From the NCBI RefSeq assembly GCF_019393635.1, contig NC_057862.1, positions 410,110,169 to 410,174,168 on the forward strand: 64,000 nt of DNA. The letters are read 5' to 3'. Source of the stretch: Dromiciops gliroides (lineage: Eukaryota > Chordata > Mammalia > Microbiotheria > Microbiotheriidae). Shown one piece after another: positions 1,358-52,680 of the stretch; positions within the stretch are counted from its first letter, which is position 1, and each line of letters opens with the position of its first letter. The position numbers and the translations under genes are program-made. The notes under the pieces were generated by a model. The model worked only from the letters and a program-made list of their open reading frames with translations, searched no databases and was not told the origin of the DNA.

Positions 1358-20877
<19,520 letters not shown>

Positions 20878-21697
20878 AGAGAAGAAACACAGACACACTG
20901 TACTTTTTTTTCATTTACATACAGTATGTTTTTTTATTATGCTAGATTATTTCCCTCCCCATAGATTGTGCCTTTCAGAAATGCCAAGTTAGGTTATCTT
21001 TCTCTTATCTGTGATATATTTTATTCAGCACCTCCAGACACTCACCTTCAGGACCTTAACAAATTAATTCAATTCACAGGTATTCAAGTTGGGTCATCAA
21101 ATGTCTGTCTGATCATCAGAAATAGCATGATTGAATTGTTTTTTCTTTTTAAAAAAATTCCTCTTATCTTCAAGTCTCTTCTTTCAGCTATTAATCTTTT
21201 CCTTTTCTGTTTTTCTTCACTGTTTGTTGTTGTTTCTGTAATTTTATTCAGTCCTTAGGGATTACTAACCAGGAAGTGGCTAGTGCTGTCTGTCTTTGTA
21301 TTCTATAGTTCATCTTGATTTTTACAAGAGATTTGATTTGGGGGTGGGAGGGTTATTGTACGTTGAATTCAGCTTGAGCTTTTCTTTAAATGCAAGACAA
21401 GGCTATGTGTAATATTTCCCCTAAAACTAGAGTATATTAATGCATGTTTGAGAGTTTAAAAGCACCATGGTTAAAACCAGAAGTTTATATTTTGCATTTT
21501 TGGACATCCACTAGGGGCCTATACTCTTCACTGGGCATATTTATCAAGGAAATTTTGTTCTAAGTCGTATAAAAATAGAAATTGTGATCTATATAGTTTA
21601 TGTATAACCTTCATTATTGTAAATTTAGGGGAAAATGCATTACACAAGTATCATGATTTTGCACCAGTGAAACAATAAAATTGCTATAACAATTTAA
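20878..21697 (+). other. VPS35: VPS35 3' UTR
   Basis: AT-rich non-coding sequence from the stop codon to the poly(A) signal, about 0.8 kb, free of the SINEs that crowd the flanks. That absence supports it being transcribed and constrained. The short open frame at 20968-21258 inside it has no recognisable product. Confidence 0.75.
21674..21679 (+). terminator. VPS35: VPS35 poly(A) signal AATAAA
   Basis: A canonical AATAAA lies about 800 bases after the stop and is followed by a GU/U-rich stretch (GTGTTTGTCTTTTTCC), the usual downstream element. Cleavage is expected near 21690-21700. Confidence 0.8.
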
Positions 21698-25099: not shown

Positions 25100-25105
25100 T
25101 TTATT
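25100..25105 (-). terminator. Candidate poly(A) signal of HRH3-like gene
   Basis: TTTATT on the + strand reads AATAAA on the gene's strand, about 400 bases after the stop. It is the first such hexamer downstream in this orientation that I found. Its use is inferred only. Confidence 0.4.
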
Positions 25106-25511: not shown

Positions 25512-26381
25512 TCACCTAAAAATATGTGGGTGAATTTTGGCTTTGCCAGGACATAGCAGCTTGATGAAAGCCTTCCGAAAGCTCATGTGACAGAGTGGGT
25601 ATAAAGCAGGATTGATGGCTGAATTTAGCCAAAGTAGCCAAAAAGAGAACTCATAGAAAAAATGCTGGACACATGTCCCGTGACACATAGCTCTGATGAT
25701 CATGAGCAGCGTATAAGGTGCCCAGCACAGCCCAAATACACACACGATGATGGCCAGAGATTTAGCCACTCTCTTGTCCCGAGAGAGACGGAGGCGGTTT
25801 GCCATTGTACTGGCAATGTCCGGGTGCCTTGTGGTATTGCAAATATTTTCTGTGGCTTCATAGACTTGGCCTGGTTTGGTTTTCATTTCAATTTGCAATG
25901 GAGGCAGATCTTGTTCACCCTGGATGTCCAAGGAGGAGGGGCTATCATTCTTGGGACCTAGGGGCCCACTGGGGAAGAGGCCATGGTCTTTCTTCTTGTT
26001 CCTGTTCCACTCAGCTGGCTTAACAAAAAATATGACATGTCCCTTTCTTTTCTCCAGGAAGTTCATTTCACTATTCTCTCGACTAGAGTCCAGATTGTCA
26101 ATTCTCAGGAGCGTGCGCTTTCTGATGCTGACATAGATGCTCAGGTTAAAGTAGGAGACACTGATGAAGGGAGTGAAGAATTCAATGGTGGAAGCAATCA
26201 TCAAGAAATACCAATTGTAGTAGAACTCAGCATAACACTCTCCTCGGGGCAGGATGCTTTTTCTGGCAATGTACTCCCAGCAGATGATGGCAGGACCATA
26301 AAGGAGGAAAGCTGCTAACCACACTATGACCATCTTGAAGATAGCATTTCTGGTCATTCCTTTTTGAGCCCTGTAAGTCAC
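25512..26381 (-). CDS. HRH3-like exon 3: TM4 to C-terminus
   Basis: Begins [12 protein letters not shown] after acceptor TCTCTGTAG. TM4 is [18 protein letters not shown]. The block [12 protein letters not shown] and [19 protein letters not shown] is close to H3. The intracellular loop 3 (about residues 230-340) is Lys/Ser/Pro-rich and unlike HRH3. TM6 starts after [18 protein letters not shown]7 has [13 protein letters not shown], and the protein ends KIHPHIFR with TGA at 25514-25512. Confidence 0.94.
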   Translation of the reverse strand: MTYRAQKGMTRNAIFKMVIVWLAAFLLYGPAIICWEYIARKSILPRGECYAEFYYNWYFLMIASTIEFFTPFISVSYFNLSIYVSIRKRTLLRIDNLDSSRENSEMNFLEKRKGHVIFFVKPAEWNRNKKKDHGLFPSGPLGPKNDSPSSLDIQGEQDLPPLQIEMKTKPGQVYEATENICNTTRHPDIASTMANRLRLSRDKRVAKSLAIIVCVFGLCWAPYTLLMIIRAMCHGTCVQHFFYEFSFWLLWLNSAINPALYPLCHMSFRKAFIKLLCPGKAKIHPHIFR

Positions 26382-29300
26382 CTACAGAGAAGAAAAATCA
26401 ACGCAAAGGTGAAAAGGGGAAAGTCCAGAAACAGGATGCAGTTTCATTGGTTCATCTGAGGTTGATTAATCAACTGTTCTAACACCTGATAAATGACCAT
26501 CGATAAGTCACTTTATATCTCAGGACCTCAGTCACCTCATCAGCCAAATGAGGAGACTACCACTTGTCTACCTCATAGGAGTGTCATGAAGAAAGTACTT
26601 CTTTTTATTCAGCTAACATTAGGCACCTGCTGTATGCAGAGCACTGTACATGACACTTGTCTGGTGGGAAGATATGACAAGAAACAAATACTTATAATAT
26701 TTAATATTGTAGCTGAAATTTTTAGAGAAGTATAAAGTCGAAAATAAGAACCCCTACCTGGGGTTGATGGGGGAGATCATTCCCAAATCTTTAACACTAG
26801 AAAGGGAGAAGTTATTGTGAGACAATGTCTCCCTCTGCTGGTGCTTATTAAAGACAATAACACACAAAATACATTTGAATATTTAGTGTGAGAAGAACTG
26901 AACATGAAGTTCATAGAAGGAAGAAATCACATGACTTGGGGAAAGAAATCAGGTGAGGCTTTATGGAGAAGGTGGCACTTGAACTGTCTTGCATTAGAGA
27001 TGACTTGAACAGATATCCCAGAGGCAATAGAAAGTCACTTAATAAGTTCCAGTGACTTCTTATTGCCTCCAGGAGCAAATACAAAATGCTGTTTGGGAAG
27101 GGGTGTATTTGGAAATGAAGATGATATGATATAATATATATATGTATTTTTTTTCCTTAGAAGATGCATAGAAGATGGATGCAGGAGCAAGTAGCAAATA
27201 CAAATGTGTTCCCTGATCCTGTAAGAATAGTGTTCATAGTGCTGAAGCTCAGAATGAACTGAAGCTAGTGAAGATTGCTAAGGACAACAAAATGGTTTTT
27301 GTTTCTCTGTTAATTTGGGAGGAGAATAAGGCTAAGCATTTAGCATGGTGCTTGGCACATAAGAGTTGCTTTATAAATGCTTGTTAATTAAAAAAAGGAT
27401 AGTACTATTCAGGATGGATGAGATGATGATAATGGAAGGAAGGGAGAACCATTCAGTTAATTGGCTTGTGTTTTCTATACCCTTTGAATTAGAACAAAAA
27501 TAGCTAATAGGGAGTTTAAACTCAAATAAGTAAAGAGAAATAGGACCTAGCAGCTTTTGATGAGATCAAGTCACCAAGCCCAGTTGAATTACATTCTAGA
27601 GACCTGAAAACAAACAAAAAATGGGTAAATATGATTGCTGAGCCACCATCAATTATGTTTGATTATTATGAAGAACAAAAGTATATTACAAAAATGAAAA
27701 AAAAAAGCAAATACCCTGATTTTCCAAACAAGACCATGTTCTAGTTCAGTCATTTCAGTCATGTCTGACTCTTTGATGACCGCATTTGGGGTTTTCTAGG
27801 CAAAGATACTGGAGTAGTTTGCCATTTCCTTCTCCAGCTCATGAGGCAAACAAGGTTAAGTTACTAGCCCTTGCTAAGTGACTTATAGCTAGTGTCTGAG
27901 GTCAGATTTGAACTCAGGGAGAAGAGTCAACCTGACTCCAGGCCCATTCTACACAGTGGGCTACCTACATGCCCTGGAGGCCAGAGGCCTGCAAAGTGCA
28001 GACCAGTGAGCTTGACATCTGTCATTGCCAAAATGTTAGATTATTAAAGGGAAAGTTAATGAATGTCTAGAAAAGGAAATCAGAAACACAGAGTCAATAT
28101 AGCTTCTTCAAGAGTAGAGCATGCTAGACTAACTCTCTTTACTTCTTTTGGATAGGGTTTACGGAACTGATAGACCAGGAGACTGATATAGGTATCATTT
28201 ATATACATTTAGTAAATCATTTGACAAAATCATGCTTTTCTTGTGGGAAAGATAAAGATATGCAATATAGTCATCATAGGCATTTTTAAGTCTCTACTCT
28301 GTTCCACAGTTTTAGGGCACAGGGGATACAAAGACACAAACAACAATCCCTAACCTCAAGGAACTTACATTCTAATGGAGGAGACAAATATATATTTAAA
28401 TATATTAAGTATATCTAGAATAAACAGAGTAAATATAAATACAAGGTAGTTAGGGAAGGAAGGCACAAGCAATTAGAGAGATCAAGAAAGAGTCATGAAG
28501 AAGGTATTGCTTGATCTTTGTCTTCAAAGAAGAGGATTCTGTAAAATCTGATGTGGGAGTATATTCCAGATTTGGGGGACAGTTGATGCAAAAGAATGGA
28601 GATGGAAGATGGAGTCCTACTTGACATGGTCAACTTGGCTGGATAATAGAGTGCAGGAAGAGTAGTAATATGCAATCAATCTGAATAACATGTAATAAAT
28701 ACAATATACAATGAATCTGAAAAGACAGATTGGGACAGGTTAAGGACTTAAGGCTAAAGGCTAAAGAAAAGAATTTAAATTTTTGTCTTGGAAGCGATGA
28801 GGAATCAGTGGATTTTGAATAGGGGAGTGATAGTCATATCTATACCTGAGGAAAATCATTATGGCAGAAGTATGGAAGATGGACTGGAGTAGGGAGAGAT
28901 GTTAGGGAGGAAGATCAATTAGGAGGTCATGACAATAGTCCAGTCAAAAAGTAATAAGAGCCTGAACCAAGGTGGTGGCGGTTTGAGTCAAGAAGAGTCA
29001 AACATGAGATATGTTGTGGAGGTAGAAGTGGCAAGATTTTGCAAATTATTGGATATTTGGGTTGAAAGAGGGTTAGGAGTTGAGGTTACTACTAAGGTAC
29101 ACATGTGGGGATTGGAAGAATGATGTTGTCCTTGACAGAAACAGGGAAGTTTGTAAGAGGGTTGGGTTTATGGGGGAAAGAAAATGAGCTCTGTTTTGCA
29201 CATATTGAATATGAGATATCTTTGGGACATCCAGTCCAATAGGGTTGGTTGGATATTCAGATTTGTCTCCCATCTACATAGAGATAATCAACTATGGGAG

Positions 29301-32300
29301 ATAATAACATCAATGAGAGAGAACGTAGGACAGACTCTTAACACTCATAATGTGGCATGATTTGGTTGATGAGCCAGCAAAGGAGACTGAGGGAAAGTCA
29401 AATAAAGGGTTACCAGGAGAAAGTAATGTCATGAAAATTCAGAGGAGAGAATATCCAGGAAAAGAACAAGGTCAGAGAGATCCAGAAGGATGAGGGCTTT
29501 TGAAAAACCATCATATTGGGTGATTAAGAGGTTTCATTGGCTAACCTATTGACTCATTGGTAACTTTGGAGAAGAGCAATTTCAGTTGAGTGATGAGATC
29601 AAATGCCAGATTACAAAAGACTGAGGAGCCAGAGGAAAGGAAGCAGAGACAATGAGCACACACATTTTCTAGGATCTTGGCTGACAAAGAAAAGAGGAAT
29701 ATAAAACAGTATTTTGGGATGTTAGAATCTAAGGAAGGTTTTTTTAAGGATGGGGAGACAGGTATGTTTTTATGGTAGTAGGGAAGGAACCAGTAGCTAG
29801 GGAGTGGATGAAGATTTAAAAGAAGGGGAGGATGATCAAGGAGTCAATCTGTTGAAAAAGATGGAAAGGTATAAGGTAAAAGGCACATTTAGAGAGGGGT
29901 TGGCCTTGGCAAGGAGAAGATTTAGATCATTATATGACACTGGGGGAAGGGAAGAAAAAATAAGGATTCCAAAATGAAAAGAAGGGAAGAAGGCCCTCAT
30001 GGCGAATGGCTTCGATCTTCTCAATAAAGTAAGATATACAGTCTTTAGGTGAAAGGGAGTGGGGAAGAGGAAGGAAGCTTGAAGACAGGAAATGGACCCA
30101 AATTGTAGTTATCAGTGGTTTGATGTCAACTTGGAGGATCTCTTATTAGAGTTCCCAACGATCTTGGTTCTGGGCAGTTTGACATTTTGATCAATGACTT
30201 GTATAAAGCTATAGATAGGTATAATCCAACCCAAACATCATTTATTAAGCACCAGTTATGTGCAAGGCAATGCTTTCAAGTCTGCAGATGATGCAATACT
30301 AGGAGGAATAACTAACCCTTGGGACAATCTGGATCCAAAAAAAATCTTAGGCTGGAACATTGGCTCAGTCTAATAAGGTGAAACTCAATAGGCATAAATA
30401 TAATGTCTTACACTTAGGTTAAAAAAAATCAACTCCATAAGTATAAGATTGGGGGACCACACCTAGAAAGCAATTGGTTTGAAAAAAGATACAGAAGTTG
30501 TAGTAGAATGCTAGCCATATCAGTGAACTCTGAGCTACGGAAGCCTAAAAAAAAAAGGGCATCTTAGAGGCCAAATTAAGGGAGGCATAGAATCCAAGAT
30601 GAGGGAGGTGATACTATACTCTGCTAAGGTTAGACCACATTTGGAGTACTGTGTTCAATTCTGGGTGTCACACTTTAGGACATTTACAAACCGAAGAGTA
30701 TCCAAAGGACAGCCACTGGTATGGTGAAGGGCCTCCAGATCATGCCATACAGCAATGGTGTCCAACTCAAATAGAAGCAGAGACCATTATACTACATATA
30801 AGGAACCCTGCAGGCCACATTTTTTACTTAGAAAACCACACATTAACGTTATCTGTATTCTATTGTATTTGTATGTATTTTGTCCGATGCCTTTCGATTA
30901 TATATATATATATTTTTTTGTGAGGCAATTGGGGTTAAGTGACTTGCCCAGGGTCACACAGCTAGTAAGTGTTAAGTGTCTGAGGCCGGATTTGAACCCA
31001 GGTACTCCTGACTTCAGGGCCAGTGCTCTATCCACTGCGCCACCTAGCTGCCCCTTTCGATTATATTTTAATCTGTTTTGGAAGCACTCAGGAGTGTCTC
31101 AGGCTGTGTTTGACACCTCTGCCATAGAAGGCTGAATGGAGGAACTGTGGACATTAAGCCTGGAGGAGAGAAGCTTTAAGGAGGAACATACTAGCTGTCA
31201 AAGTATTTGAAGGGTTGTCAGATAGAAGAGGCTGAAGATTTGGTCCCAGTGGGAAGAACTAGGAATAATAGGTTAAAGTTACAGGAGGCACCTTTAGGCT
31301 CCCTGAAAAGAAGCACTTCAAGGCAGCTGGGTGGCTCCACAGTGCACAGAGTGTCAAAAAGACTCATCTTCCTGAGTTCATATTAGGCTAGACACTAGCT
31401 GTGTGACCCTGGAAAAGTCTCTTAACCCTGTTTGCCTCAGTTTCCCCATATGTAAAATGTTCTGGAGAAGGAAATGGCAAACCACTCCAGTAAATTTGCA
31501 AAGTAAACCCCAAATGAGGTCATGAAGAATCAGATACAAGTAAAAAACAACTGAACAACAATAAAAGTTGCAGAAAAGTTGAATGGGCCTTAGGAACTGG
31601 TGGGTTCTCCTGCCTAGAGATCTTCAAGCAAACTATGTCCACTTCATAGAAACCCTCTCTTCCTTCAAGCACTACTTTCCACATGAAGCTTTTCCAACCA
31701 GTACAAGGTAACTTGCATTTAATTATTCTGTATATGTTTTGTTTATTACTTTGTGTTGTATATATTTTTACATATACTTGTCACTCCCCCAAACCCCCAT
31801 TAGGATGTAAGCTCTAGAGAGCAGGGATTGTTTCATTCTCTATACTTGTGTCCCCAGTCCTAGCAAGGTGACCAGCACTTAGAGGCTTAATATATATTTG
31901 TTGAGTGATTTATTGGATAATTGCTTGTCTAGTATGTTTTAGAGTTGATTCTTATTCAGATGGGCTGCACGACATGGTCTCTGACTTCCCTTCCAACTCT
32001 GTGATAATGAGAGAGAATGTAGATGGCCGAATGTGGCTCATTCTCATTACTGGGGAAAGGATTCAGAATCCATCCCCTGCTTAATGTACCCATCCCCACA
32101 ATCAGCAAAGCACTGCCCTGAATTTTGATTTATCAGTATCTGTAATTTAAATATATTTTAATTTTCCTGTCTGCTAGTGTAACAGCAATACTGTGCCTAT
32201 TGAGAGTATGAAGTCCTTCCCTCTGTAAATGCAAAAATGTCTGAAAGAATTCTGCTGCTCCGTCTTTCAGTCAGGAAGAAAAGTATGAACATGGTGAAAG

Positions 32301-34606
32301 TTAATGGTGGGGGATGAAAGAATCTTAGTGATTTGATATATTTTTCCCCCTCACTTTGTTCTAGATTAATCCAGGCCCTTTTGAAATTTGTGTTTCACCT
32401 AAACAGAACATTCAGTTCTGCACATCAAGCTCAGCTCAGTGAGCAATTAGCTAAGAGATTTCATTGTACCTATAGCTAGAATAAAGCCATTAATCAGTAA
32501 GAATGAAACTAATTACCAGAGAAGGTTCTCAGAAGATTGTACCCATGGTATATGCTTTTTCTGAGTTCCTAGTAATTTATAAAACACCACTCTGGGCAAT
32601 AGTTTATAGTTTAAGAAATCGATTGTGGTCAAATACAGTTAAGAATTTAGAAAAACAGAGCAACAGGATGGAACCACAAGGGAAGTGCTCTACAAAGAAG
32701 TTAAATTAATCTGATAATAAGCCATTCTTATAGCACTTGAAATGCACTTTAAACACAGTTTCTTCACATAAACCCTATTGTATTTGGATGCTTTTTGAGT
32801 TTGTGACTTGCTCAGGATAATCAAAACTGCAACTCCAGCCCAAGTTTTCAGATCGTAAATTCCTCTAAACATTATACTATCATAGTTTGAGCACCAAAGG
32901 ACACATAGAGATTGAGGGGGCTTATTAGAGGTATTAAATGCCAAGAAGAAAGCCCCCTCAGTGCCCTATTTCTCTCCTCCAAGACCTTTCCTCTCTCTTG
33001 GCCTTTTGGAGGCAGTAGAGGTCTAAGGAAAAGAGCCTGGAGCTGGAAGTGTCCTGGGCCATTTGTTTAACTTCTTTGTGTGTGCAAATGTAAAATGTTC
33101 AGTCATTTTTCAGTTGACTCTCTGTGATCCCGTTTGTGATTTTCTTGGCAGAGATACTAGAATGGTTTCCTCATTTTACAGATAAGGAACTGAGGCAAAT
33201 GGGGTTAAGTAACTTGCCCAGGGTCAGCGCAGCTATTAACTGTCTGAGGCCAGATTTGAACTTGAGAAGATGAGTTTTCCTGGCCCAGCACTCTATTCAT
33301 TAATTCACCATTTTAAAAGGTTGCTGGTATCCTAATTCAGACATGAAGGCTGTCCCCAAACATAAGCAGGCTTATTTCACTTATGCCCTCAAATGGGAAA
33401 TCAACCCAAAGCCCCCAAGGATCCTTTAGAGGGAAACCCTTAGCTCTTCTTACCGCTCTGGTGACAGAGTTGAACCTGTCGAAACTGATGAGGACGATGT
33501 TGAAGACAGAAGCAGTACACACCAGGTAATCCACCACCAGCCACAACTTGCACAGCCCCTTCCCAAACTTCCACTCTCCGGTCAGGACATAAGGGATGTA
33601 GAGAGGAATGCAGAATCCTCCTGCAGTTAGAGAGCTTTCAGTGCTGTGGCTGAAGGCAGGAGCCCTCATACTCTTACTCCAACACAACTTTTTGATCTAA
33701 TGCCCTGGAGGCTCAGAGAAGGCGAAGAGAAGCGAGGAGGGGTGGGTAGTAGGAGCACGACCATTCAGTTCTCAAGGCTTTACTTGAGATATTCTCCTCC
33801 TTGAGAGATATCAAAGCTCTTTATTTAATTAATAACAATAATAAAAAGTTCTGAAGTAGCTGTTCCCGTGTCCAGTCTGGAGTAGGGATCATGATTTCCA
33901 ATCAGAAAACCCACCCACCCTACCACTTTACTCTTCTGAATCCCTGCTTCCTATCCCCACCTCCCATCTGAAGTCTTGTCCCTTCTTTGATCATGTAGCT
34001 GAAAGTAACCTCAGTGACCCCGTCCTTATTTCACAGAGGAGGAAACTGAGGCCAAGCGAGGGGAAGTGAGTTGCCCAAGGTCAACGAGTGGTAAATTCTG
34101 GATTCGAACCCAGGACTTATGACTCCACATTCCAAGGCTCTTTTCACTATACCGCGCTGCCTCATCTCTCTCTCACACATTCCTCAAAGTCCTAGGTAGG
34201 TAAGGGATTCAGTTATTCTACCCTGGGAGTCACTTAAGGGCCTTTAGCCCCTTTTGTTCAAAGATCAAGTGCTAACCGCTTGATAGCCCGCCCCTGGGCT
34301 GTCTCCGCCTCAGTTCTCTTACTTACCTACCAACAGGTCGGCGATGGCCAGGTTAAGGAAAAAGAAGTTTCCCTGCGTGCGCAGGCTTCGGTCCACCACG
34401 AAAGCTAGGATGACCAGAGCGTTGCCCAGCACCGTGGTCAGCACCAGCAGCGCCATGAGCGTGGCCAGTAAAGCTGCCACCGGAGCAGAGAACCTTCCGG
34501 GATGCAACCCGGGATAGGGTTCCGGTCCGGGTTGTGACTCCTGTATCTGCTCTAGTTCTGGGGCGCACGAATTGCCTGAGGAATTGAATACTATCTGCGG
34601 CTCCAT
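25512..34606 (-). CDS. Histamine H3 receptor-like GPCR, three exons, 438 aa
   Basis: A class A aminergic GPCR of the histamine H3/H4 group, expected at the plasma membrane and coupled to Gi/o. Joining 34606-34327, 33620-33454 and 26381-25512 gives 438 residues (human H3: 445). Visible features are an N-linked sequon at N8, N62 (1.50), D90 (2.50), C117-C198 for the disulfide, D124 (3.32) that binds the amine, DRF at 141-143 as in H3, W170 (4.50), E216 (5.46) as in H3/H4 histamine binding, P220 (5.50), CWAP around 368-371 and NPALY at 406-410. Both introns fall where human HRH3 has them, and exon 2 is 167 bp. The middle of loop 3 and the tail differ strongly from HRH3. Human HRH3 and HRH4 are on chromosomes 20 and 18, whereas VPS35 is on 16, so this is probably a separate paralogue. 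The coordinates give the span; the exons are listed separately. Confidence 0.9.
26480..26600 (+). repeat. MIR-type fragment
   Basis: AAGTCACTTTATATCTCAGG, CTCATCAGCCAAATGAGG and CCTCATAGGAGTGTCATGAA are a degraded MIR 3' half, in HRH3-like intron 2. Confidence 0.5.
27047..27395 (+). mobile_element. L2 LINE 3' pieces
   Basis: CCAGTGACTTCTTATTGCCT at the left and GGTGCTTGGCACATAAGAGT at the right are two parts of an L2 3' end, with unidentified DNA between. Confidence 0.5.
27741..27976 (-). repeat. MAR1-type CORE-SINE
   Basis: TCAGTCATGTCTGACTCTTT, GGGGTTTTCTAGGCAAAGAT and TTGCCATTTCCTTCTCCAGC, then the reverse body. It is inserted in the CR1 fossil. Confidence 0.9.
28290..30120 (-). mobile_element. 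L2-type LINE fossil inserted in CR1
   Basis: The reverse strand reads degraded CR1-clade reverse transcriptase, for example [17 protein letters not shown] near 29590, matching the L2 STETALSKVTND block. The + strand shows the familiar ATACAAAGACACAAACAACA and GGAACTTACATTCTAATGGA. Frames are broken; the short open frames over this region are not genes. Confidence 0.7.
30914..31054 (-). repeat. Marsupial poly(A) SINE, GTACTCCTGACT subtype
   Basis: A full reverse copy with target duplication CTTTCGATTATAT, in the 3' part of the CR1 fossil. A (TA)n run at about 30899-30914 adjoins it. Confidence 0.96.
31320..31565 (+). repeat. MAR1-type CORE-SINE
   Basis: GGCAGCTGGGTGGCTCCACA head, CCTCAGTTTCCCCATATGTA CORE, GGCAAACCACTCCAGTAAAT, and an AACAACTGAACAACAATAAA end. 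Confidence 0.92.
31650..31930 (+). mobile_element. L2 LINE 3' end
   Basis: CACATGAAGCTTTTCCAACC, GGATGTAAGCTCTAGAGAGC, GTGTCCCCAGTCCTAGCA and AATATATATTTGTTGAGTGA, the ordered L2 3' end. Confidence 0.75.
31931..33095. other. HRH3-like intron 2, no recognised element
   Basis: About 1.15 kb between repeats. A MIR-tail-like stretch lies near 31985; otherwise nothing coding or repetitive is recognised. It ends about 360 bases downstream of exon 2, with a SINE in between. Confidence 0.4.
33098..33310 (-). repeat. MAR1-type CORE-SINE
   Basis: TTCAGTCATTTTTCAGTTGA, GATTTTCTTGGCAGAGATAC and GATAAGGAACTGAGGCAAAT, then the body; it ends about 140 bases from HRH3-like exon 2. Confidence 0.88.
33454..33620 (-). 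CDS. HRH3-like exon 2: TM3 region
   Basis: A 167-bp exon between acceptor CTAACTGCAG and donor GCG/GTAAGA. It encodes [16 protein letters not shown], then [12 protein letters not shown] with the amine-binding Asp, then [11 protein letters not shown]. By eye about four fifths of residues match human H3; H4 differs much more. Confidence 0.92.
34000..34170 (-). repeat. MIR/THER-type SINE in HRH3-like intron 1
   Basis: GAGGAGGAAACTGAGGCCAA, GTTGCCCAAGGTCAACGAGT and CTTTTCACTATACCGCGCTG form an almost complete reverse MIR-type copy. Confidence 0.8.
34327..34606 (-). CDS. HRH3-like exon 1: N-terminus, TM1, TM2
   Basis: The start ATG at 34606 sits in a strong Kozak context (GCGGCAATGG). The open frame continues upstream only through a GTG, so this is the first usable start. 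It encodes [10 protein letters not shown], a Pro/Glu-rich extracellular tail, then TM1 with [12 protein letters not shown] and TM2 with [10 protein letters not shown]. The donor is G/GTAAGT, phase 1, as in HRH3. It is GC-rich compared with the surroundings. Confidence 0.9.
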
Positions 34607-34730
34607 TGCCGCACGCCTCGACACTTGGTCAGTAACCGACGGAGAGCGGGGAGTCAGCCAGTTGTGGAGGGATGCTGAGGAACGAGCAAGAGTAAGAGAG
34701 TAAGCGAAGGGAGACGGTCTGAGAATGAGA
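34607..34730 (-). promoter_or_regulatory. Probable TATA-less 5' flank of HRH3-like gene
   Basis: Read on the gene strand, the 120 bases before the ATG are pyrimidine-rich, with several CpGs near the ATG and no TATA box. It may be 5' UTR and/or promoter; the transcription start cannot be placed from sequence. Confidence 0.35.
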
Positions 34731-34985
34731 TGAGAGAGGAGGAGAGTTGGGAAGAGAAGAGGAAAGGAGAGGAGTGGCAGAGGGGGAGGGAGAGAAGAGG
34801 ATTGGTAGAAGTGGAGAGAAGAGAAAGGGGGAGAGGAGAGAGAAAAGGGGAGAAGAGAGAAGTGGTAAGAAGAGAAAAGGGAAATGCTTGTGGCCGGAGG
34901 AAGGAGGAAGGATCGACTAAGCCTGGGACAGCCCCTAACTTCGTAAAGAAGAAGAGGAAGAAAAAAAGGAGTGAGAAAGCACTGG
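34690..34985. repeat. Long polypurine (GA-rich) tract
   Basis: About 300 bases that are nearly all A and G on the + strand, beginning about 100 bases upstream of the HRH3-like start codon. The open frame at 34730-35104 (Arg/Glu/Lys-rich) is a product of this composition, not a gene. Confidence 0.85.
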
Positions 34986-35099
34986 AGGGAAGAAGTAGGC
35001 TAGAAATTGAGAGTTATTTCCTCCAATCGCGAGGAGAGGGTCCTTTTCATTCCATTCCCCACTCTTCCTCGCTTCACCCTCTTCCCTGCCCCGTGGAAG

Positions 35100-44573: not shown

Positions 44574-44862
44574 TCTATTTCCCCTTAGCACTAGTCTTCA
44601 CTCCTCCCTGCATATTGTTCAGTTCAGTGACACTGCCCCTCTTGGGTTCCTCAAACACTCTGCTGCATCTCCAGATTAGAGTGCTTTCGCTGGCTGTGCC
44701 CTTTGCCTGAATTTCTCTCCCACTTGATCTCCACTTCTTAGCTTCCCTGGCTCCCTTCAAGCTTCATCTAAAGTCCCACCTTCTAGAAGATACCCTTCTC
44801 CAGGCCACCTTAATCTTAGTGCTCTCCTTCTGAGACAAGACCAATTTATCCTGTACATATCT

Positions 44863-45011
44863 TTTTTTTTTTTTTAGTGAGGCAATTGGGGTTAAGTGAC
44901 TTGCCCAGGGTCACACAACTAGTAAGTGTTAAGTGTCTGAGGCCGGATTTGAACTCAGGTACTCCTGACTCCAGGGCCGGTGCTCTATCCACTGCGCCAC
45001 CTAGCTGCCCC
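44863..45011 (-). repeat. Marsupial poly(A) SINE, GTACTCCTGACTCC subtype
   Basis: A full reverse copy flanked by ATCCTGTACATATCTT and ATCCTATACGTATCTT. Confidence 0.96.
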
Positions 45012-45205
45012 AATCCTATACGTATCTTACTCGTACATACTTGTCTTCATGTTGTCCACCTTCACCCTACCCCTCCAAACTAGATTGTGAGCTCCTTGAG
45101 ATCAGTGATTGGTTTTTTTGCCTTTCTTTGTATTCTCATCACTTAGCATAATGCCAGCACATAGTAGGTCCTTAATAAATTTATTTAACTGACTGACTGA
45201 CAGGA

Positions 45206-52182: not shown

Positions 52183-52391
52183 TCCATTCATTTTTGAAGC
52201 TTTCACGCAGCTATCTTGGTTCATGGCTGAGTGCAAACCATCCCACTTGGCCCAGTATATCTATTAGCTGGCCTTGGATTCCTAAACCATGATTTGCCAT
52301 GATTCACCTTCACATCTAATCTCTTTTAGACCATTTTTCCAGCTGCCTTCTCTGCTTCTGGAAAGGATATGTCCATTGATTGCACTGTGTA

Positions 52392-52541
52392 TTTTTTTTT
52401 TTTTTGTGGGGCAATGAGGGTTAAGTGATTTGCCCAGGGTCACACAGCTAGTAAGTGTCAAGTATCTGAGGCTGGATTTGAACTCAGGTCCTCCTGAATC
52501 CAGGGCTGGTGCTTTATCCACTGCGCCACCTAGCTGCCCCC
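52392..52541 (-). repeat. Marsupial poly(A) SINE
   Basis: A full reverse copy with target duplication ATTGCACTGTGTATT. Confidence 0.96.
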
Positions 52542-52544
52542 AAT

Positions 52545-52680
52545 TGCACTGTGTATTAACCTTGGGCAAGTCATTTGACTTCCCAGGGCCTTGGTTTCCT
52601 CAACTACAAAATGAAGGAGTTGGTCTAGATGTCCTCTAAGGCCCCTTCCAGCTTGAAACCTATGATCCTATGGACTTCCA
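52545..52680 (+). repeat. MIR SINE, 3' part
   Basis: CCTTGGGCAAGTCATTTGAC, GGTTTCCTCAACTACAAAAT and GGCCCCTTCCAGCTTGAAAC. Confidence 0.8.

Follow-up and report, generated by a model that had tools for sequence, protein, structure and literature searches.

Histamine in the H3 and H4 receptors (H3R and H4R) is held by two residues, D3.32 and E5.46. In the accessible part of the Concise Guide 2025/26 the wording is 'all 4 histamine receptors'. A further clade related to HRH3 and HRH4 was named HRH5 (H5) in one sentence of the accessible text of a 2019 study (Sci Rep 2019 9:7058; PMC6504862), where it is described in relation to HRH1/3/4 and its members come from gar, fishes, amphibian, sauropsids and four mammals, including two marsupials. 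For HRH5, the accessible passages of PMC6504862 name no locus, describe neither a binding pocket nor a loop motif, and do not list its placentals.

Records bearing similar names were also considered. GGA2 is the chicken chromosome that corresponds to human chromosome 18. Chicken HRH3L, placed on GGA2 at ~103.5 Mb in the accessible part of PMC7318453, is therefore probably of HRH4 type and not an orthologue of the gene described below. Zebra finch HRH3L (PMC7599217) was set aside as a list entry only in the accessible text, and the 'HRH5' in the part seen of a chicken paper (PMC12752978) was apparently written in error for HRH2.

The receptor gene analysed here belongs to the marsupial Dromiciops gliroides and lies in a stretch of 64,000 nucleotides, referred to as the window. 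It is highly probable, in our judgement, that this is a complete and conserved third receptor gene of the H3/H4 group, of the HRH5 subtype, at a separate locus flanked by VPS35 and SHCBP1, for which histamine as the ligand, Gi/o coupling and H3-like drug binding are predicted. The gene is intact, falls in a separate clade, shares its intron positions with the HRH3 and HRH4 that the same genome carries, and has a conserved pocket. The window holds the following features:

1 to 20877, plus strand: VPS35, tail-to-tail neighbour of the receptor gene; first exons left of the window, stop codon at 20877
25100 to 25105, minus strand: candidate poly(A) signal of the receptor gene, the first AATAAA past its stop codon (motif only)
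25512 to 26381, minus strand: coding exon 3 (870 nt), running from ICL2 to the C-terminus, with E216 (5.46), the ICL3 motifs VIFFVK and DLPPLQ, W369, NPALY and the stop codon
33454 to 33620, minus strand: coding exon 2, 167 nt, TM3 with D124 (3.32) and DRF; phase 0 intron next
34327 to 34606, minus strand: coding exon 1, 280 nt, N-terminus, TM1 and TM2 to ..DLLVG; phase 1 intron next (from splice borders and join)
34251 to 35000, no strand: CpG-rich stretch, likely promoter, covering exon 1 and adjoining upstream DNA (from GC content and CpG o/e)

Joined, the three exons (minus strand, 34606-25512) give an unbroken frame of 438 residues and a stop codon with GT-AG borders at both introns, just as an earlier sequence-only reading had described, and the D124, E216, DRF, ECL2 cysteine (C198) and NPALY that it had listed are all present. 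A pseudogene reading was rejected, as neither the open frame nor the splice borders gave any sign of one. The whole-genome search placed exon 1 at C2:410144493-410144774. The GC content and CpG o/e are 0.57 and 0.75 at 34251-34750, and 0.53 and 0.68 at 34501-35000, against a window median CpG o/e of 0.10 (127 bins). The CpG-rich exon 1 and the 94% full-length identity to the tammar wallaby protein (P0001) put the gene far beyond chance. Identity to three marsupial orthologues reaches 97.7-98.0% in the core compared with 81-86% outside it, as expected under constraint.

The neighbouring VPS35 was recognised by 10 of 10 Pfam Vps35 exon matches at C2:410107025-410127692 on the plus strand, and by eight ORF stretches from the window that match VPS35 chains in the PDB (best E 1.4e-284), the last of them reaching the stop at 20877. 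The first AATAAA past this stop is at 21674 (plus strand), 3.4 kb from the receptor's AATAAA at 25105 (minus strand), in agreement with the tail-to-tail arrangement and the spacing of ~3.4 kb between poly(A) signals proposed earlier. SHCBP1 is on the plus strand at window coordinates ~123,080 to 156,268, 88 kb past the receptor start codon; the receptor thus sits inside the VPS35-SHCBP1 interval, facing left between two genes that face right. None of the 60 OSBP-family matches in the genome is near the window. Seven BRK-domain matches were considered as markers of a duplicated chromosome block: two fall within 8-9 Mb of the receptor (C2:400.9 and 402.3 Mb), but the seven carry no assignment to named CHD genes and do not decide for or against such a block.

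A genome devoid of any other HRH3 had been named as an outcome that would speak against a separate paralogue. The genome-wide search found both relatives:

C2:442905550-442910471: HRH3, exons of 241/167/882 nt, on the same chromosome, 32.8 Mb from the receptor
C1:239233512-239241683: HRH4, exons of 187/167/795 nt

Identity per exon is 88-99% between this HRH3 and that of the bilby, and 47-62% between this HRH4 and that of the mandrill. An OSBP-family gene at C2:442.68-442.72 Mb lies ~0.2 Mb from HRH3 and another at C1:238.82-238.83 Mb lies ~0.4 Mb from HRH4, which fits the human neighbours of HRH3 and HRH4, OSBPL2 and OSBPL1A. The receptor, HRH3 and HRH4 of this genome have in common both intron positions with their phases (1 and 0) and an exon 2 of 167 nt.

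The search with the window protein returned, among the best 120 of 1144 proteins, an orthologue-like series of three marsupial clusters (92-94% identity), turtles, alligator, birds, lizards, snakes, tuatara, frogs, caecilians, salamander and sturgeon, together with grey and red squirrel, colugo, tree shrew, rabbit and pika. A squirrel-protein query (best 120 of 1294) added Arctic ground squirrel and gar, and its placental rows rank above the marsupials, except one short ground squirrel form. Four placental lineages (Sciuridae, Lagomorpha, Scandentia and Dermoptera) are therefore represented among the matches listed. The gene had been supposed absent from known placentals; this stands for human and mouse, from which the best 120 of 1294 include no protein of the clade, and fails for squirrels, colugo, tree shrew, rabbit and pika. 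We consequently rejected the notion that among mammals the marsupial lineage alone kept the gene, which is also common among sauropsids and amphibians and is carried by gar and sturgeon. The same best 120 contain no primate, mouse-like rodent, carnivore, ungulate, bat, elephant or armadillo. Judged from these matches, none of those groups is likely to have an intact, annotated copy of full length in the searched database, an absence that leaves room for fragments, unannotated genes and members inside 90% clusters (the squirrel cluster holds 20). If the absence is real, the gene would have been present in the placental ancestor and then lost several times. No monotreme belongs to the clade among the matches listed; platypus HRH3 is present in the best 120 of 1614 used for comparison.

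This comparison set of 120 consists of 117 HRH3 and three HRH4 proteins. In a score test independent of any tree, every one of the 125 clade proteins was nearest to the window protein rather than to HRH3 or HRH4 of the same genome, while the 117 were nearest to that HRH3 and the three to that HRH4. At least 26 species (e.g., Tupaia, Alligator, Pelodiscus, Podarcis and Spea) occur by name in both the clade and the HRH3/HRH4 lists, which suggests that many species hold both genes. Database names of the orthologues are 'histamine H3 receptor' or 'H3 receptor-like', the marsupial ones being 'histamine H3 receptor-like'.

Phylogenetic trees separated the receptor from both known types. The clade, comprising marsupials, some placentals, sauropsids, amphibians, gar and sturgeon, has support of 98/93 in a tree of 58 rows, where the window protein joins wallaby, koala and opossum (100/100), marsupial and placental members unite (100/99), and gar and sturgeon are the first to branch. 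In a tree of 38 rows that includes HRH3 and HRH4 of the same genome, its support is 98/100, and that HRH4 pairs with mandrill HRH4 (100/100) apart from it. The separate H3/H4-type paralogue postulated from the sequence is upheld by these trees and by HRH3 and HRH4 lying elsewhere in the genome; a grouping inside the marsupial HRH3 or HRH4 clade, looked for in the trees, did not appear. Under the AU test, a position of the window gene with HRH3 was rejected (p 0.0027), as was a pair formed with the HRH3 of its own genome (p 8e-92). Its placement with the long-branched HRH4 rows was not rejected (p 0.206), which we put down to the long HRH4 branch being poorly placed. The branches of HRH4 and the outgroup are very long. 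HRH3 forms no firm clade (38/74 in the 58-row tree, split in the 38-row tree), which leaves any branching order of the three types tentative.

The protein is a class A aminergic GPCR, with Pfam 7tm_1 (E 5.7e-56), D124 at 3.32 and NPALY, and DRF in place of DRY. Its best sequence match in the PDB is human H3R (494 bits), followed by H4R (278 bits); the muscarinic and H1 receptors, alike in their aminergic class A fold, score far lower than H3R (207 and 183 bits). Two stretches of the helical core are 71.5% and 68.6% identical to human H3R, versus 51.6% and 47.7% to H4R. A predicted structure of the wallaby orthologue, of modest confidence (mean pLDDT 61), has seven helices and helix 8; solved H3R is its best match and histamine receptors are its top matches in a fold search, and it carries weight as a fold match only. 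With generic residue numbers assigned by hand, D3.32, Y3.33, C3.36, E5.46, W6.48, Y6.51 and F7.39 are the same in the receptor, human H3 and human H4, and these seven columns are invariant in 125 relatives, bar one gap at D3.32. The receptor thereby has the H3/H4-type pocket of D3.32, E5.46 and an aromatic cage. At 6.52, 6.55 and 7.42, where H3 and H4 differ, it equals H3. At ten helix columns, at least 95% of the clade departs from the residues of human H3 and of human H4 alike.

The third loop of the clade has its own marks: a DLPPLQ-like motif occurs in 104 of 125 members and an IFFVK-like motif in 102, frequencies that follow by construction from patterns drawn from the clade members. The informative part is the absence of both motifs from all 117 HRH3 and three HRH4 proteins (best 120 of 1614), and their reach to gar, which has both, and sturgeon, which has DLPPLQ only. 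That a short motif is conserved while the loop around it changes fast suggests a binding partner.

Compared with HRH3, the window gene thus has the same three exons, two intron positions, 167-nt exon 2 and pocket residues, and a core identity of ~70%; it differs in that HRH3 lies near an OSBPL gene in this genome, lacks both third-loop motifs (117 of 117 in the best 120 of 1614) and occupies a separate branch, and the window gene is placed outside both the HRH3 orthologues and the HRH3 locus. With HRH4 it shares the gene structure, D3.32, E5.46 and the aromatic pocket residues, whereas core identity is ~50%, the HRH4 branch is very long, the locus is another one, and at a 5.43-type position, 6.52, 6.55 and 7.42 HRH4 is unlike the window gene, which has the H3 residue there. 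Clade and locus set it apart from HRH4 as well; by the AU test alone (p 0.206), HRH4 joining at the window-gene branch is not rejected. HRH5 of PMC6504862 resembles the window-gene clade in the species spread given in its accessible passages, with a gar member in both. The two clades are probably the same, as judged from this spread and from gar P0123 standing in for ENSLOCP00000006664; the subtype is accordingly in all likelihood already named and not new. In the literature searched, which takes in few subscription papers, we met no mention of the gene's place beside VPS35, of its uneven retention among placentals or of the two third-loop motifs, and no functional study of the clade.

Other explanations of the gene can be weighed against this evidence. 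The ~70% core identity to human H3R and the database names would agree with a relocated HRH3, or else HRH4, of this lineage; this reading is practically untenable and was refuted by the presence of HRH3 (C2:442.905-442.910 Mb) and HRH4 (C1:239.23-239.24 Mb), each near an OSBPL gene, and by trees that split all three. The intact gene might instead be silent or heading to loss in D. gliroides, given that apparent loss in many placentals, among the matches listed, indicates that it is dispensable in some settings. We consider this very unlikely in view of the intact frame, the splice sites, the CpG-rich start and a core that is 98% identical across four marsupial sequences, one of them from an American opossum. 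Somewhat less improbable, yet still unlikely, is a conserved receptor of H3 type that serves mainly another amine than histamine, its pocket having been retained for a related molecule: receptors of the amine family can change ligand, and the ten divergent helix columns would suit such a change, but every compared pocket column equals H3R, including E5.46 and Y6.51, and the fold search ranks histamine receptors highest.

The retained pocket residues and the H3 identity at 6.52, 6.55 and 7.42 lead us to expect a histamine receptor of the third H3/H4-group type with Gi/o coupling and H3-like ligands. Histamine would be bound, as in H3R and H4R, through the acid D3.32 for its amine and E5.46 for its imidazole, and the predicted Gi/o coupling would lower cAMP. 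Binding of H3-like drugs is predicted from a seven-helix core that is ~70% identical to human H3R versus ~50% to H4R. With less confidence, the third loop with its own IFFVK and DLPPLQ may confer regulation or partners unlike those of H3 and H4, and the genome duplications of early vertebrates may have given rise to the gene together with HRH3 and HRH4, an origin suggested by the gar and sturgeon members. Human chromosome blocks are the basis for proposing paralogy by duplication. The broader proposal, of a fifth working histamine receptor present since the bony-vertebrate ancestor, with loop motifs of its own, lost several times in placentals and kept in squirrels, rabbits, pikas, tree shrews and colugos, seems to us evenly poised between holding and failing.

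If the receptor binds histamine, many vertebrates would possess a fifth histamine receptor. Rabbits, tree shrews and squirrels, which are used in physiology, would then have an extra H3-like target that is seemingly absent from rats, mice and people, and H3 drugs may act on two receptors, not one, in those placentals, in marsupials and in birds. The patchy survival of the gene among placentals offers a natural set of losses for asking what the receptor does.

The genome of Dromiciops gliroides carries intact copies of both HRH3 and HRH4, and an OSBP-family gene lies near each of them. HRH3 is located on the same chromosome as the receptor gene of the window, 32.8 Mb away from it.

C2:442905550-442910471, HRH3, intact
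C1:239233512-239241683, HRH4, intact

Among the histamine receptors compared, two third-loop motifs were specific to the clade of the window gene, the group of H3/H4-type receptors standing apart from HRH3 and HRH4.

window 25945-26031 and 25868-25920 (approximate), minus strand, VIFFVK and DLPPLQ, inside exon 3 of the window gene

The gap between the receptor gene and SHCBP1 spans about 88 kb (window coordinates 36000 to about 123000); no gene was recognised in the ORF list for the part of it within the window, and to the right of the window the search covered SHCBP1 only. A recurring repeat appears throughout the ORF lists of the window, with frames on one strand reading a common 24-residue string, and looks like an abundant interspersed element; three of its many copies serve as examples.

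window 30898-31098, repeat copy
window 44846-45046, repeat copy
window 52282-52599, repeat copy

In chicken, the symbol HRH3L has been given to a gene on GGA2 (PMC7318453), which is probably of the HRH4 type; therefore the 'H3-like' names of birds probably cover at least two genes.
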